Assembly (NCBI RefSeq): GCF_001905825.1
Contig: NZ_LIVV01000011.1
Coordinates: 62,001 to 126,000, forward strand
Origin: Streptomyces sp. CB02009
GTDB lineage: Bacteria > Actinomycetota > Actinomycetes > Streptomycetales > Streptomycetaceae
Direction of reading: 5' to 3'
DNA length: 64,000 nt
The notes beneath the pieces were generated by a model, which made no database searches, was not told the DNA's origin, and saw nothing but the letters and a program-made list of their open reading frames with translations. A program made the position numbers and the translations under genes. Of this stretch, positions 43,233 through 63,249 are shown piece after piece (position 1 is the stretch's first letter; the number at the start of each line of letters is the position of its first letter).

Positions 43233-43703
43233 ATGTCGAACGCCGGCAAGGTCGTCAAGCTGTACGCGAAGGGGGCCCCGGTCGGAGTCGAGGACGGAGC
43301 CGTGGTCGGCTACCTCGCCGACCCGACCCGCGCCGGGGAGTGGCTGATCACCCGGGACGACGAGGGCTTCCGGCTCACCGCCAAGGGCACGGAGGAGACC
43401 ATCGCGTCGGAAGGCACCGAGCGGGCGCCCGTCGTCGCCCGCCCCGACGACTCCCCCGCGTCCGTCTGGCGCCTCCAGCGCGTCGAGGGGGACGAGGGGG
43501 CCGAGGGGGACGGTGACGGCGGCACCGTCGCGCTCACCACCCTCACCTCACTCGCCGACCTCCGGGACGGCACGTACGTGATCGACCAGAACGGTCTGGC
43601 CCTCGGCCGCGACCTGTTCGAGGACCGCTCCCTGCTCCCGAAGCGCATCTTCGTCCGTACGGACGACCGGGACCCGCAGTGGCGCATCGAGGTCCTCGCC
43701 TGA
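43233..43703 (+). CDS. Small beta-rich protein, possibly I66-type peptidase inhibitor
   Basis: A 156-residue acidic protein without signal peptide. It alternates short strands and turns (GEWLITRDDEGFRLTAKGTEE, VWRLQRVEGDEG, LRDGTYVIDQNGLALGRDLFED, RDPQWRIEVLA), a pattern that fits a beta-trefoil. It recalls bacterial proteins annotated as I66-family serine peptidase inhibitors, a resemblance I cannot confirm here. The ATG at 43233 is chosen for AGGAGG at 43223-43228; an upstream ATG at 43116 would translate the 9-bp repeats. Confidence 0.65.
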   Translation: MSNAGKVVKLYAKGAPVGVEDGAVVGYLADPTRAGEWLITRDDEGFRLTAKGTEETIASEGTERAPVVARPDDSPASVWRLQRVEGDEGAEGDGDGGTVALTTLTSLADLRDGTYVIDQNGLALGRDLFEDRSLLPKRIFVRTDDRDPQWRIEVLA

Positions 43704-45915: not shown

Positions 45916-47097
45916 ATGAACACGCGAGCGATGAAGACCAGGACGTCGAGGTTCCGCCTCTCCCGAGCGCACAAGGGCCTCCGACGCGGGGGCGCGGCGG
46001 CCGCGGCGGCGGTGGTCGTCGCGGTGATGACGGCGGGCGCGCTCGCGCCGCCCGCGGCGGTCGCGGCGACGCGGCCGGACGCGGTGCAGCAGGGTCTGAA
46101 CGCCCTGGTGCGCGGGGGCCAGCCGGCGGCACTGGCGAGCGTCGAGGACGGCAGGGGGCACGCCCGTACGTACACCGCGGGGGTCGGCGACCTGGCCACG
46201 GGCGCGAAGGTGCCCAGGGACGGCCAGGTGAGGATCGGCAGCAACACGAAGACGTTCACGGCGGTGGTCGTGCTGCAACTGGTCGGCGAGGGGAAGATCG
46301 GCCTTGAGGAGTGGGTCGACACGTACCTGCCGGGGGTGGTCAGGGGGAAGGGGCTCGACGGAGGGAAGATCACCGTCCGTCAGCTGCTGCAGCACACGAG
46401 CGGGATTCCGGATTACGGGGCGGACATCAGCGACGAGGAGATGCTGCACCGGTACTTCGAGCCCCGTGATCTCGTGGATGTGGCGCTCACGCACGAAGCC
46501 GAGTTCGAACCGGGGAAGAAGTGGAGTTACAGCAACACGAACTACGTACTGGCGGGGCTGATCGTCCAGAAGGTGACGGGGCGCCCGTTGGCCGAGGAGA
46601 TCGACCGGCGGGTCGTGAGGCGGATCGGGCTGCGGCACACGTATTTCCCGGGGCAGGGAGACAGGAGCATCAGGGAGGCGCACCCGAAGGGCTATCACCG
46701 GATGAAGGCGGGTGAGCCGCTGCGCGACGTCACGCAGCTCGACCCGTCGGCGGGCTGGGCGGCGGGCCAGATGATCTCGACGAACTCGGACCTGAACCGC
46801 TTCTTCGGCGAACTGCTCGGCGGCGATCGCCTGCTGCGCAAGGCGCAGCGCGAGCAGATGCGGACGACGGTCCCGATCGAAGGGACGGAGTTCCACTACG
46901 GGTTGGGACTCATGAAGAGGCCGCTGTCGTGCGGAGGCTTCTACTGGGGCCACGGCGGCGACATCACGGGCTACGAGACCAGGGGCGGAGTCACGGAAGC
47001 CGGGCGGGCCGCGAACGTGACGGTGACGAGCATCCCGACGGAGACGGAGGCCGTGAAGGGTGTGGCGGAGGTCGTGGACACGGCTTTGTGCGGGTGA
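45916..47097 (+). CDS. Secreted serine hydrolase, class C beta-lactamase/DD-peptidase fold
   Basis: A 393-residue exported protein: a basic leader and signal helix (about 27-50, cleavage near AAVAAT), then the penicillin-recognising fold. Motif 1 SxxK is SNTK at 109-112, motif 2 is YSN at 205-207, and motif 3 is HGG at 346-348, the form used by D-alanyl-D-alanine carboxypeptidases and esterases of this group. ATG at 45916 with GGAAGGA upstream. It is divergent from the two-component system and may be its target, which would suit a cell-wall signal. After its stop begins the large inverted repeat. Confidence 0.92.
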   Translation: MNTRAMKTRTSRFRLSRAHKGLRRGGAAAAAAVVVAVMTAGALAPPAAVAATRPDAVQQGLNALVRGGQPAALASVEDGRGHARTYTAGVGDLATGAKVPRDGQVRIGSNTKTFTAVVVLQLVGEGKIGLEEWVDTYLPGVVRGKGLDGGKITVRQLLQHTSGIPDYGADISDEEMLHRYFEPRDLVDVALTHEAEFEPGKKWSYSNTNYVLAGLIVQKVTGRPLAEEIDRRVVRRIGLRHTYFPGQGDRSIREAHPKGYHRMKAGEPLRDVTQLDPSAGWAAGQMISTNSDLNRFFGELLGGDRLLRKAQREQMRTTVPIEGTEFHYGLGLMKRPLSCGGFYWGHGGDITGYETRGGVTEAGRAANVTVTSIPTETEAVKGVAEVVDTALCG

Positions 47098-47210
47098 GAG
47101 CGGGTGAGAGGGGTGGGCGCCGGAGGGCGGGGGTGAGGTGTCTGGGGCGACGGTCCAGCTCTACCTCGGGTGCGGCCGCCCTCTTTCCGAGTGTGGCGTC
47201 CTCCACCACC

Positions 47211-47273
47211 GCGTCAAGGGCGCTCCTTCGTCGCGTCGGCTTCGCCGATTCCGCTGCGCTCCACCCTTGACCC
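47211..47273 (+). repeat. 63-bp unit, left copy of perfect inverted pair
   Basis: Identical over 63 bases to the reverse complement of 47852-47914. The unit begins GTCAAGGG and ends CCCTTGAC once two or three flanking bases are trimmed, with an internal hairpin TCGGC-TTC-GCCGA, so each copy is itself a quasi-palindrome. It is framed by CGGCCGCCCTC...CCGAGTGTG on the left and CACACTCGGAGGGCGGCCG on the right. Confidence 0.92.
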
Positions 47274-47851
47274 GGCGGCGGAGGCCGCCTTTTCACACTC
47301 GGAGGGCGGCCGAGGGCCGGGGCCGACGCCAAGGCCCGGGTAGTGGGCGCCGCTTGGGGGCGTCTGATCGACGGTGGGTGGGGGCTTGGTTCGCGGCCGG
47401 GCGGGGTGGGCTCCGGTCGGCTGGTTCGGGGTGCGCGGTTGTTGAATGGGGCGGCCCGGCAGCGCTTAGCGGCTGTCCTTCGTCGGTTGGCTGGGATTCA
47501 GGCCCCGCTGGTCACTGCCGGTGGGTGGTGGGGTGGGGTCGGTGTGAGTTTCTTGCACTTTCAGCGCCCGATAAGGGCGATTCGCCCCTGATGGGGCATC
47601 TTTCGGGGCGTGTTACTCGGAGTAGCCCGCAGTTTCCTCCACCCACACCCCACCGGGGGTGACCAGCGGGGCCTGAAGCCCCACCACGGACCACCACAAC
47701 CCGCTAAGCCGTGCCCAACTGCCCCATTCAACTGCCGCGCACCCACCCACCGACCGGCACACGCCCGCCGACGCCGGCCACTGCCCGAGGCCCGGCGTGG
47801 ACCCGGCCCCCCGGACCGCCCTCCGAGAGTGTTTTCGCTCCTGGAGGTGGT

Positions 47852-47914
47852 GGGTCAAGGGTGGAGCGCAGCGGAATCGGCGAAGCCGACGCGACGAAGG
47901 AGCGCCCTTGACGC
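47852..47914 (-). repeat. 63-bp unit, right copy of perfect inverted pair
   Basis: Exact reverse complement of 47211-47273. Here the frame is GACCGCCCTCCGAGAGTG on the left and ACTCTCGGAAAGAGGGCGGTC on the right, matching the left copy's frame in inverted order. Confidence 0.92.
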
Positions 47915-48013
47915 ACCACCGGAAGGAGCGACTCTCGGAAAGAGGGCGGTCCCACCCGTCACTCACACACCCGGCCCACCCCAAGAAACCCAAGACCCGC
48001 ACCCCACCCGTAC

Positions 48014-48475
48014 CTAGTCCAAGCAGAACTCGTTCCCCTCCGGGTCCGCCATCACGATCCACCCCGCGCTCATCGGCGGCTCCGGCTCGAAGCGGCGCAG
48101 CCGCTTTCCTCCCCGCGCGACCAGCCGTTCGCAGGCCGCCTCCAGCGCCGCCATCCTCTCCTCCCCCTCCAGCCCCGGCGCCGCCCGCACGTCGAGGTGC
48201 ACCCGGTTCTTCGCCGTCTTCCCCTCCGGCACCTGCTGGAAGAACACCCGCGGCCCCTGCCCCTCCGGGTCCTCCAGGGCCGATCGCGTGTTGCGCTCCT
48301 CCTCCGGCACCCCCAGCTTCGCCAGGAACTCGTCCCACACGGCCAACGGGTCCGCCCCTTCCGGCAGTTCCACTCCCGGCGGGCCCGGATGGACGTACCC
48401 CAGCGCCTCGCGCCAGAAGGTCGACAGCGTCCTCGGGTCGTGTGCGTCGAACGTGACCTGGAATCGGCGGCTCAT
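48014..48475 (-). CDS. VOC (glyoxalase-like) family protein
   Basis: A 153-residue vicinal-oxygen-chelate protein: a start MSRRFQVTFDAHDPRTLSTFW, then GPRVFFQQVPEGKTAKNRVHLDV and the closing MADPEGNEFCLD motif that carries a metal-ligand position in the fold. Relatives include glyoxalase and antibiotic-binding proteins; the ligand is unknown. ATG at 48475 with GGAAGGGAG upstream, divergent from the broken WYL regulator. Confidence 0.88.
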   Translation of the reverse strand: MSRRFQVTFDAHDPRTLSTFWREALGYVHPGPPGVELPEGADPLAVWDEFLAKLGVPEEERNTRSALEDPEGQGPRVFFQQVPEGKTAKNRVHLDVRAAPGLEGEERMAALEAACERLVARGGKRLRRFEPEPPMSAGWIVMADPEGNEFCLD

Positions 48476-48565: not shown

Positions 48566-49526
48566 ATGGACGAGCGAGGGACCACCGAGCGGGTACTCAC
48601 CCTCCTCGGGCTGCTGCAGCAACGCCGGTCCTGGTCCGGCCCCGAGCTTGCCGACCGGCTCGGCGTCACCCCGCGCACGGTGCGGCGCGACGTCGAGCGG
48701 CTGCGCACGCTCGGCTATCCGGTCCACGCCGGCCTGGGCGTGGGCGGCGGCTACCGGCTGGGCCGGGGGCAGGATCTGCCGCCCCTCCTCCTCGACGACG
48801 AGGAGGCCATCGCGACCGCGGTCTCCCTGCTCGCCGGCGCGGCCGCCGGTTCCGGTGACGCCACGATCCGGGCACTGACAAAGCTGGACCAGGTGCTCCC
48901 GGCTGCGGCACGAGGTGCGCACCCTGTCGGGCTCGGTGGAGTTCTTCGGCTCGGGCCGCGCACCGGTCGACCCCGACGTCCTCATGACCCTGGCCGGGGC
49001 CTGCCGCGAGGAGGTCGAGGCGGGGTTCGACTACCCCTCCGGGGGCTCGGTCGGGCCGCGCCGGGTCGAACCCCATCGCCTGGTCGCCTCCGACCGCCGC
49101 TGGTACCTCCTCGCGTACGACCTCGACCGCGACGGCTGGCGCACCTTCCGCCTGGACAGGATGACGGCGGTCGCGGCCCGGACGTGGCGCTTCCGCCCGC
49201 GCCCCGCGCCCGACGCTGCGGAGTACGTGCAGGAGGGTGTCACGAGCCGGGTCTACGCCCACCGGGCACGCTTCCTCGTCCACGCTCCGGCGGCCACGGT
49301 CCGCGCGCAGGTCCCGGCCTCGGCGGCGGTCGTCCACGAGCGGGGCGAGGACCGTTGCGAGGTCCTGAGCGGCGCGGCGAGCCTCGACCGCGTCCTCATG
49401 CACGTACTCCTCCTCGGGCACGAGTTCGAGCTGCTCGATCCCCCGGAGCTCAGGGACCGCTGCCAGGCTCTGGCGGAGAAGCTCCTGTCCGCTGCCTCCA
49501 CCCGGTGGCCGCGCCGTCCTGCCTAG
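48566..49526 (+). pseudogene. WYL-domain helix-turn-helix regulator, broken by frameshift
   Basis: From ATG 48566 the first frame encodes the HTH domain (LTLLGLLQQRRSWSGPELAD, VTPRTVRRDVERLRTLGYPV) and on to LTKLDQVLP near 48899. The rest of the family, RLRHEVRTLSGSVEFFGSG through the WYL domain (RLVASDRRWYLLAYDLDRDG, FRLDRM) to EKLLSA, is in another frame, readable from about 48903 to 49526. The expected text QVLPARLRHEV is restored by adding five bases: the local CTCCCGGCTGCGG looks like loss of one CCGGC/CCCGG copy. Both halves are well preserved, so the break is recent, or a sequencing or assembly error. Confidence 0.85.
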
Positions 49527-52193: not shown

Positions 52194-52598
52194 ACAGACG
52201 AGTCGGGCTGTACGCCGGGTTCTGTCCCCCGGGACCTCGCGGTCGTCGGGGCGACGGCCATCCATCTAGGACCGGCGTTGCCACCGGCCTCCTGCGGTCT
52301 ACCCGCGGACTCGGGCGAGCAGCCCTCGAACATCCGCGCAGGGACACCGAGGTGTCCCCTCTTGACCTTGCTCCGAGTGGGGTTTACCTAGCCGCCTGAG
52401 TCACCTCAGGCGCTGGTGGTCTCTTACACCACCGTTTCACCCTTACCGGGGACCGAAGTCCCCGGCGGTCTGTTTTCTGTGGCACTGTCCCGCGGGTCAC
52501 CCCGGGTGGCCGTTAGCCACCACCCTGCTCTGTGGAGCCCGGACGTTCCTCGGGAAGATCCGAGGATCTCCACGCGGCCGCCCGCCCGGCTCGTCTGC
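52194..52598 (-). ncRNA. rnpB: RNase P RNA, bacterial type A
   Basis: On the minus strand the transcript opens near 52598 and closes near 52194, about 405 nt. Helix P1 pairs AGACGAG (5' end) with CTCGTCT (3' end). The universally conserved 5' core GAGGAACGTCCGGGCTCC is followed by ACAGAGCAGGGTGGTGGCTAACG, and the 3' core ACAGAACCCGGCGTACAG pairs with it to form P4. The hairpins CGCCTGAGGTGACTCAGGCG and GGGACACCTCGGTGTCCC are typical type-A arms. The RNA is the catalytic part of the enzyme that trims tRNA 5' leaders. A TAGCAT -10 candidate lies just upstream at about 52611-52616. Ends are approximate to a few bases. Confidence 0.95.
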
Positions 52599-61129: not shown

Positions 61130-61944
61130 TTGGGGGCTCCAGGGGAGGTGTGGTGGGAGGACCAGGGGTCGGTGACCGTCTTCGAGACGTGGACGCGGAG
61201 GTCCCAGCCGTGGCGGTCGGAAATCTCGTCGAGCTGGGCGGCCGCCTGCTCGCACCAGGGCCATTCGGTGGCCCAGTGGGCGGCGTCGACCAGGCCCAGA
61301 GGCGACTGCTGGGTCGCCTCGGAGACGGGGTGGTGGCGCAGGTCCGCGGTGAGGAAGGCGTCCACGCCGGAGGCACGTACGGCGTCGAAGAGGCTGTCTC
61401 CGGAGCCGCCGCTGACGGCGACGCGGCGCACGGTCATGCCGGGGTCGCCCGCGACCCGGATGCCCTGCGCGGTGGCGGGCAGCCGCTTCGCCGCGCGGGC
61501 GGCGAACTCGGCGAGGGTCTCGGGGTGGTAGAGCTCGCAGATCCGGCCGAGGTTGTTCTCGGCCACGAGGGGGCCGGTGACCCGGAGGTCGAGGGCGCCG
61601 GCGAGGGCGTCGGAGACGCCGGGGTCGGCGGTGTCGGCGTTGGTGTGCGCGACGTGGAGGGCGATGTCGTGCTTGATGAGGCGGTGCACCACGCGGCCCT
61701 TGAAGTGGCCGGCCGCGACGGTCGTCGTCCCGCGCAGGTAGAGCGGGTGGTGGGTGACGATCAGGTCGGCGCCGAGGGCGATCGCCTCGTCGGCGATCTC
61801 CTCGACCGGGTCGACGGCGAAGAGCACGCGGGTGACTTCGGCGTCGGGGTCGCCGCAGACGGTGCCGACGGCGTCCCACGACTCGGCCCGCTCTGGTGGC
61901 CAGAGGGCGTCGAGGGCGGCGATGACTTCAGACAGGCGGGGCAC
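61126..61944 (-). CDS. Nif3-like dinuclear metal-binding protein
   Basis: A 272-residue protein of the Nif3/YbgI (DUF34) family. Metal ligands and landmarks: ESWDAVGTVCGDPD, VTHHPLYLRG (His pair), VAHTNADTADPGVSDALA, and HHPVSEATQQSPLGLVDAAHWATE (the second His and Glu). The family may hydrolyse or repair GTP- or cyclic-nucleotide-derived compounds; its role is unsettled. The GTG at 61944 gives PRLSEVIAAL. It leads the three-gene operon with the zinc-ribbon and RNase H genes. Confidence 0.93.
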   Translation of the reverse strand: MPRLSEVIAALDALWPPERAESWDAVGTVCGDPDAEVTRVLFAVDPVEEIADEAIALGADLIVTHHPLYLRGTTTVAAGHFKGRVVHRLIKHDIALHVAHTNADTADPGVSDALAGALDLRVTGPLVAENNLGRICELYHPETLAEFAARAAKRLPATAQGIRVAGDPGMTVRRVAVSGGSGDSLFDAVRASGVDAFLTADLRHHPVSEATQQSPLGLVDAAHWATEWPWCEQAAAQLDEISDRHGWDLRVHVSKTVTDPWSSHHTSPGAPN

Positions 61945-62214
61945 GAGGAAAGGCTACCTGGCCCGCCTTCGCGGCCGGTACCGCCGCCGTCACGGGGCCG
62001 GCGGCGGGCGGCCCGGGGGGGCCGATGGGCGAGCGGCCCGGGGGCGGCCCGGGGACGAGACTCCCCCGGCGACGGGCTGCCCCGGCGGCGGGCCACCCCG
62101 GCCGCGTACTGCCCCGGCGCCGTCGGCCGACGGCGGGGGCCGACGCCGGGGGCCGGCTCGTCCTCCGCCGCTCGTCGGGGGAGGCTCGCCCCCGCCGCTC
62201 GGCAGGTGGCCGCG
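61945..62214. other. 270-bp gene-free stretch, very GC rich
   Basis: No gene is evident. It holds an 18-bp perfect palindrome at 62118-62135 (CGCCGTCGG and its complement) and several G/C-run hairpins. As both flanking genes read on the minus strand, it should contain the terminator of the siderophore-binding gene and the promoter of the Nif3 operon. Confidence 0.6.
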
Positions 62215-63249
62215 CTACTTGACGAGGTAGCCGCGCAGGTCGTCGAGGACCATGTTCGCCGCCGTCACGCCGAGACCCAGGTACCAGGTCTCGTCCGGGA
62301 CGTCCTCCGCCTGGCCGGCCTTGACCGCCTTGAGGTCCTTCCAGAGCGGGTTGGCCTGGGCGGTGTCCTTCTTGGTGGCCTTGGCCTCGCCGTACACGCC
62401 GGTGAAGATCCAGTCGCCGTCGGCCTCGTCGATCTTCTCCGGGCTGATCTCGGCCGCGAGCTCGTCGATCCGCTGGTTCTCGGGCCGCGGCAGGCCGGTG
62501 TCCTGGAGGATGGTGCCGATGAAGGACGCCTTCGCGTACAGGCGGATCTTGCCGGGGAGGTAGCGGACCATCGAGACGGTCGGCTTGTCGGGGCCGATGT
62601 CCTTGCCGAGCTGCTCGGCCTTGGTCTCGTACGCGGCGAGCTTCGCCTCGGCCTCGGCGGTCCGGTCGAGCGCCGCGGCGTTGAGGAGGTAGTTCTCCTT
62701 CCAGGTGAAGCCCGGGCGGATGGAGAACACGGTCGGCGCGATCTTCGACAGCTCGTCGTACTTGTCCGCGGCGCGCAGCTGGCTGCCGAGGATCAGGTCG
62801 GGCTGGAGGTTGGCGATGGCCTCGAGGTTGAGGTTGTTGATGGTGCCGACGGACTTCGGGGTGCCGGCGTCCTTCTGGAGGTAGGCCGGGATGCCGTCGT
62901 CGCCTTCGGCGGGGGCGTAGCCGACGGGCTTGACGCCGAGGGAGACGACGTTGTCGAACTCGCCGACGTCGAGGACGACGACGCGCTTCGGGGCGGCCGG
63001 CAGCTCGGTCTTCCCGAGGGCGTGGGTGAGGGTGCGGGGGAACTGGCCGGCCTTGGCGTCCGTGCCCATGGCCGCGGTCTTCGCGGCGGCGTCGCCGAAG
63101 TCCTTGCCGCCGGTGGCGACGTCCTTCTTCTTGCCGGTGTCCTCCTTGGCGGAGGCGTCGGATCCTCCGTCGCCTCCCCCGCAGGCCGCGAGCGAGAGCG
63201 CGGCGGCGAGGGCGACGACGGCGGCGGTGCCGCGACGGCGGAGGGACAT
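62215..63249 (-). CDS. Iron-siderophore ABC transporter substrate-binding lipoprotein
   Basis: A 344-residue lipoprotein with lipobox LSLAAC (Cys23). The binding-protein fold of the FecB/BtuF type is visible: RVVVLDVGEFDNVVSLGVKPVGYAP, LNLEAIANLQPDLILGS, and TVSMVRYLPGKIRLYAKASFIG. Such proteins deliver ferri-siderophores (hydroxamates in particular) to a permease that is not next to it here, so it may share a transporter. The ATG at 63249 gives a normal signal peptide; the longer open frame to 63375 runs back toward the iron box. The iron box 63385-63403 places it under DmdR1/IdeR-type control. Confidence 0.92.
   Translation of the reverse strand: MSLRRRGTAAVVALAAALSLAACGGGDGGSDASAKEDTGKKKDVATGGKDFGDAAAKTAAMGTDAKAGQFPRTLTHALGKTELPAAPKRVVVLDVGEFDNVVSLGVKPVGYAPAEGDDGIPAYLQKDAGTPKSVGTINNLNLEAIANLQPDLILGSQLRAADKYDELSKIAPTVFSIRPGFTWKENYLLNAAALDRTAEAEAKLAAYETKAEQLGKDIGPDKPTVSMVRYLPGKIRLYAKASFIGTILQDTGLPRPENQRIDELAAEISPEKIDEADGDWIFTGVYGEAKATKKDTAQANPLWKDLKAVKAGQAEDVPDETWYLGLGVTAANMVLDDLRGYLVK

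Follow-up and report, generated by a model that had tools for sequence, protein, structure and literature searches.

What is the inverted repeat of nearly 800 bp that lies between two converging genes of Streptomyces sp. CB02009? The window analysed here is a stretch of 64,000 nucleotides of this genome. A first-pass annotation had described two nested arm pairs folding around a central hairpin at positions 47167-47958, and had proposed two copies of a mobile palindromic element in head-to-head orientation, a very strong bidirectional terminator or a structured RNA.

Results

The window palindrome and its parts

Self-alignment of positions 46900-48200 returned an inverted match of 849 nt scoring 224 bits, whereas the best of 200 dinucleotide-preserving shuffles reached 40 bits; the nested repeat with its outer and inner arm pairs is thus present at 47167-47958, and its arms stand above background. 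The arm pairs are 47167-47273/47852-47958 (107 nt, 88% complementary), 47310-47385/47739-47814 (71%), 47429-47472/47701-47744 (82%) and 47488-47532/47642-47686 (84%). The longest perfect arm is the annotated 63-bp pair, 47211-47273 with 47852-47914; the perfect 19-bp pair can be read in the sequence as TTCAGGCCCCGCTGGTCAC and its complement, and the central feature at 47575-47587 reads GGGCGATTCGCCC. The core limits given earlier hold, while the outer limit was drawn too tightly, as the right side runs to about 47995. The RNA fold of the element has a z-score of -22 (20 shuffles).

As had been noted, the site lies between converging genes, the plus-strand gene ending at 47097 and the minus-strand gene at 48014, and the palindrome occupies most of this 916-nt gap. 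That it is the only long gene-free region of the window was not borne out, since 61264-62215 (951 nt) is also without a called gene according to our crude codon-statistics caller, which overlooked the Glyoxalase_6 gene beside the element. A Pfam transposase match was found in none of the 12 neighbouring proteins scanned (one of the 12 had no match of any kind), in agreement with the absence of a nearby transposase reported before. The parts of the element and its two neighbours are as follows.

45916-47097, plus strand: left neighbour, beta-lactamase-family protein (PF00144), 3' end towards the element
47124-47995, no strand: entire element, outer tails included (the core is 47167-47958); homology with genome G015 extends up to 47123 and begins again at 47996
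47167-47545, plus strand: left (L-type) arm, from an arm profile match at 47159-47578 (plus) and alignments; inner limit by eye
47169-47316, plus strand: module A, L type, a hairpin with a 4-nt bulge on the 5' side, from profile match and covariation
47211-47273, plus strand: left hairpin apex, TCAAGGG...CCCTTGA, content variable among copies
47418-47527, plus strand: module B, left copy, from profile match; primary sequence conserved
47546-47641, no strand: central loop, holding GGGCGATTCGCCC at 47575-47587; limits by eye
47596-47971, minus strand: right (R-type) arm, from arm profile match
47649-47745, minus strand: module B, right copy, from profile match
47810-47956, minus strand: module A, right (R-type) copy, from profile match
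47852-47914, minus strand: right hairpin apex; in the window copy it complements the left apex perfectly over 63 nt
48014-48442, minus strand: right neighbour, Glyoxalase_6 (VOC) protein, 3' end towards the element

Three other features of the window were recorded. A WYL-domain regulator (48566-49526) adjoins the element and is interrupted by a frameshift near 48895-48915, both halves being in one frame in G015, G004 and S. zaomyceticus; it is either a pseudogene or the product of a sequencing error. A class A RNase P RNA gene lies at 52195-52593 on the minus strand, and a small protein at 43233-43703 has a partial peptidase inhibitor I66 match near its C-terminus.

Copies in CB02009 and anatomy of the arm

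Searching the CB02009 genome with the left arm revealed six copies of an element of about 0.8 kb (lettered a to f), each with both outer arms; contig C31 carries four of them, C33 one and C3 the one in the window. When the copies are aligned with their flanks, the core is common and the flanks are unrelated; for the window copy, the core aligns with the others and the right tail is common to other copies, and the left tail is not. The copies differ by indels of varied length, the central loop is conserved among the five readable ones, and the codon-statistics caller found no gene inside these five. The window palindrome is thus one member of a multi-copy family.

Each element is an inverted pair of arms of about 400 nt. 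Outermost in an arm is module A, a hairpin of 145 nt that has a 4-nt bulge and, at its apex, TCAAGGG...CCCTTGA. A G-rich spacer separates it from module B, which measures about 110 nt and is invariant at 23 columns in an alignment of 53 arms. Left and right arms differ at fixed positions (GTGTGGC versus GAGAGTC) in CB02009, G004 and others, from which it follows that the arm pair is old; carriers at a greater distance, ms191 and G076 among them, have two arms of a single type. Apex forms are shuffled among the CB02009 copies, being identical on the left in a and e and in d and f, and on the right in a and b and in c, d, e and f.

An assembly artefact or chance is the first explanation to be considered, as the CB02009 draft consists of 35 contigs and the copy at 658 kb of C31 has N in its middle. 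The shuffle scores speak against it; moreover, an assembly mirror is unlikely because the arms do not match perfectly and single-contig assemblies (G413, G255 and G298) show elements built in the same way. We regard this explanation as negligible, and the earlier view of an old inverted duplication stands.

Occurrence in Streptomyces and beyond

A model of module B matched 24 of 392 Streptomyces genomes, CB02009 included (nine candidates were scored per genome, so that per-genome counts are at least the values obtained). In a sample of 197 genomes drawn over the class, with 19 candidates scored per genome, CB02009 alone matched, that is one of 90 genera and none of the 89 others. Neighbouring module-B pairs within 2.5 kb, among the 121 matches listed, point inward in 40 of 41 cases, one pair being in tandem and none outward. 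Scanning genome contigs for a pattern picked out 18 stretches, which belong to eight named Streptomyces, namely S. zaomyceticus, S. nymphaeiformis, S. flavochromogenes, S. griseoluteus, S. aureus and strains ms191, Root431 and R302.

The whole element found matches in 76 of 150 genomes at E <= 0.001 (three candidates scored per genome), many of which, among the matches listed, are the hairpin apex alone. Twenty larger stretches around such matches comprise 11 with an inverted repeat of 199-599 nt, two with inverted apices and seven with neither; other Streptomyces families with the same apex thus often make long inverted pairs. Placed side by side, the apices agree and the stems differ between groups, and therefore a wider Streptomyces superfamily seems to exist, of which the window repeat would be one family.

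A plasmid origin was rejected, as four plasmids (two from Streptomyces, two from Nocardia) match only 7-14% of the query. The Nocardia plasmids NZ_CP108384.1 and NZ_CP107850.1 match the apex part with 82-86% identity over about 65-72 nt, so that apex-like hairpins are not limited to Streptomyces. A phage origin was rejected too: no phage match was obtained, and IMG/VR gave no exact pattern match. Our searches of open-access literature brought up no recognisable description of the family.

Two observations concern individual copies. One arm in G068 (L253, 3064-3623) contains several head-to-tail units of about 95 nt, each complementary to the other arm. In draft genomes, copies are found at contig ends (G279, C12 at 343650 of 344395; G329, C23 at 107; G042, C5 at 499455 of 499653), and such palindromes therefore probably break assemblies.

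In nine genomes with a one-contig chromosome, 31 of 32 module-B places, among the matches listed, fall in the middle half of the chromosome, as an element of chromosome architecture or replication might do. The core genome sits in the central Streptomyces chromosome, and old common loci are consequently expected there, which makes position weak evidence; in addition, the loci are non-independent and G015 has a single place. We consider such a function very improbable.

Common places and concerted evolution

Several places are occupied in more than one species. Locus f is occupied in CB02009, G015, G076 and Root431, with both flanks matching; locus e in CB02009, G004 and G348 (both flanks) and in G329 (one flank); locus c in CB02009 and G004, with one flank matching; and locus d in CB02009 and G300, where the adjoining genes differ. 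The window place holds a collapsed remnant of about 240 nt in G004 and about 26 nt in G015, 24 of them aligning to 47789-47812, possibly a scrap of the element. S. zaomyceticus lacks an element at locus d (about 60 nt stand there instead of about 909), and G015 lacks one at locus e.

That the same exact gap is used everywhere was rejected, since places are shifted or neighbours changed. G004 copy a lies about 5 kb from locus f and was not accepted as the same gap as CB02009 copy f, nor was G004 copy b paired with CB02009 copy b, the immediate neighbours being different. S. zaomyceticus has an element in the neighbourhood of the window locus, at a distance of about 1.7 kb and not in the gap itself. 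At locus d (L130, 7616-11218, and relatives), flanking genes are present or absent by species, with breakpoints near the element edges.

Within a genome the copies resemble each other. Whole-element identity is 0.84-0.91 among CB02009 copies a-e and 0.93-0.95 among those of S. zaomyceticus, versus 0.73-0.79 between CB02009 and G004 and 0.68-0.72 between CB02009 and S. zaomyceticus. For locus c, comparison of CB02009 with G004 gives identities of 0.81-0.91 in the left flank and of 0.65-0.89 in the element (0.65-0.85 once its first 100 nt are set aside); the elements of CB02009 c and b are 0.89-0.99 identical to each other. In a tree of arms, given the arm type, grouping is mostly by species (CB02009, G004, S. 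zaomyceticus, Root431, ms191, G006, G076), and L joins R in more distant species, several branches being poorly supported. Concerted evolution is incomplete, because G004 copy c is no closer to its genome-mates (0.76 and 0.78) than to the CB02009 copies (0.73-0.77).

The outer tails, judged by eye, are locus-specific and common to species at loci c and f, which favours inheritance over repeated re-insertion at preferred sites; the latter is the less probable account. The comparisons would be explained most simply by elements that pass down vertically and undergo gene conversion, with some gained and others lost.

Genes between the arms and the question of mobility

In some genomes the arms enclose genes: MST in Root431, LysR and SDR in ms191 (where the left arm is partial), SUKH and Glyoxalase_6 in G076, and PadR and a hydrolase in G038. 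At locus f alone, the content between the arms is a few nucleotides in G015, N in CB02009, MST in Root431, and SUKH with Glyoxalase_6 in G076. In R302, the flanks of locus f are about 6 kb apart and a Y1 transposase lies near the single arm found: a 117-aa IS200-like protein (L125, 2102-2455), about 300 nt inward of the arm.

Such enclosed genes, together with the discrete two-ended units, whose neighbouring module-B pairs point inward in 40 of 41 cases, and with presence or absence between species as at loci d and e, are what would be seen of a non-autonomous, MITE-like or fold-back transposon having terminal inverted repeats of about 400 nt, mobilised by a transposase in trans and sometimes carrying genes. 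Against it, the five readable CB02009 copies are without a gene, and the enclosed genes vary by place, several places being common to species. A screen for the Y1 transposase family (PF01797) found it in two of 14 carrier genomes and not in CB02009, and no target duplication was seen at the one clean empty site read, whose flanks have diverged (about 85% identical). A transposon is, in our judgement, rather unlikely. Of the head-to-head mobile element first suggested, the head-to-head arms are borne out and the mobility is not, as elements stay at common places and homogenise.

Position relative to neighbouring genes

Outer arm edges face 49 gene 3' ends and 32 gene 5' ends, compared with 145 and 283 in the background (p about 1e-5 by Fisher's test; the median distances are 62 and 155.5 nt), in a tally whose loci are non-independent, many being common to several species. 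Inner arm sides, distances above 500 nt, the duplicate loci L123 and L198 and ends without a called gene were left out, as were three sides of L143, out of four, and the right side of the window element, where the caller had overlooked the gene. Convergent gaps hold 10 of 30 elements versus 25 of 214 background gaps (p 0.004). A rule that elements always lie between convergent genes was rejected, since the other 20 of the 30 lie elsewhere, four of them between divergent genes. The bias could reflect avoidance of promoters; the bidirectional terminator of the first-pass annotation may also be retained, given the position at gene 3' ends. On this positional evidence, we regard a role at transcript ends as a tentative possibility.

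Fold and covariation

In the alignment of module A (43 distinct sequences, representing few independent events), 97% of cells are paired, 134 cells have changed on both sides and three on one side. The covariation score is 0.214, compared with 0.072 for shuffled and at most 0.054 for slid alignments, and no excess over shuffles appears when one counts the pairs that changed on both sides (11) or the types of pair (17). A bulged stem fits the changes better than the outer stem proposed by RNAalifold, which it replaced.

If the element were a long structured RNA, or gave rise to long double-stranded RNA that RNase III processes, the extreme fold, the matched changes in module A and the conservation of module B and the loop would be accounted for. 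However, the module A fold is at least as strong in antisense (z = -15.6) as in sense (-11.7), wobble-type mismatches between arms in 14 elements divide almost evenly between the two senses (275 and 260), and a fold of module B is not supported, although its sequence is conserved. Rfam, searched with E up to 5, gave nothing near gathering score over the element, the best row being mir-587 with 29.4 bits against the 80 needed. Furthermore, one-sided G-U intermediates are almost absent from module A, and this scarcity hints that the hairpins may have been perfected by copying at the DNA level (template switching). The RNA reading is distinctly improbable, and the evidence lends no specific support to the suggestion made at first sight.

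Discussion

The explanation that we prefer, with moderate confidence, is that the window palindrome is a giant, non-coding, two-armed REPIN/BIME-like repeat, passive and maintained by recombination, for which a two-way role at transcript ends would be the likeliest use. Taken singly, its identity as such a repeat is highly probable and the transcript-end role tentative. The element would be inherited in place, with gene conversion between copies keeping them uniform; the arms of one element would also be homogenised by recombination, more slowly, and template switching would keep the hairpins perfect. It would be retained at gene 3' ends because it does little harm there or some good, as a hairpin read either way could stop or protect converging transcript ends, acting as terminator or exonuclease barrier. 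A pure hairpin barrier is incomplete as an explanation, because the sequence of module B is conserved without a supported fold.

REPINs and BIMEs are the closest known kind (PMC3116915, PMC3733652, PMC1590033, PMC4681348, PMC3765725). Like these and REPs, the window repeat is extragenic, palindromic and dispersed as inverted doublets, with hairpins and compensatory stem changes (PMC3116915, PMC3733652), and its doublets are able to form one hairpin. REPs are given as 20-40 bp long (PMC3733652), and PMC4681348 cites a review whose title poses gene conversion in REPs as a question. Unlike such short, high-copy units, the window repeat measures about 0.8 kb and has six copies, two-module arms and places common across species; CB02009 also lacks a RAYT-type (Y1, PF01797) transposase. 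Because of its size and the missing RAYT, we do not file it as a REPIN/BIME member.

Fold-back or long-TIR elements and MITEs have long inverted ends, are non-coding and sometimes have genes between their ends. The family of the window repeat has all of these features, and differs in that the copies read have no transposase, no target duplication was seen at the one empty site read, and elements are homogenised in place. TIRYTs, according to PMC3733652, have long inverted repeat families that flank tyrosine transposase genes and also occur apart from the gene; the likeness lies in long inverted repeat families away from the gene, whereas R302 is the one carrier in our set where a Y1 gene was found close to an arm. 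An intrinsic terminator consists of a GC-rich hairpin followed by a T run and ends transcripts, and hairpins are seen in the element. The cutoRNAs of Streptomyces also concern convergent genes, whose 3' ends overlap, but they are defined by transcription, and the passages of PMC3765725 consulted name no repeat.

A broader, unlikely reading is that giant paired palindromes form a widespread Streptomyces superfamily with a common apex and clade-specific stems, inherited at central places and evolving in concert as rRNA operons do, with no transposase belonging to them. These palindromes would be maintained by recombination, would bracket sites of gene turnover between or beside their arms and would perhaps be sites of gene exchange or transcription boundaries.

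If the preferred reading of a recombination-maintained, REPIN/BIME-like repeat is true, it raises the questions of what perfects and homogenises palindromes of about 1 kb and of whether convergent transcript ends are set there, and Streptomyces would gain a large counterpart of REP/BIME, in which in-place inheritance and concerted evolution could be traced gap by gap.
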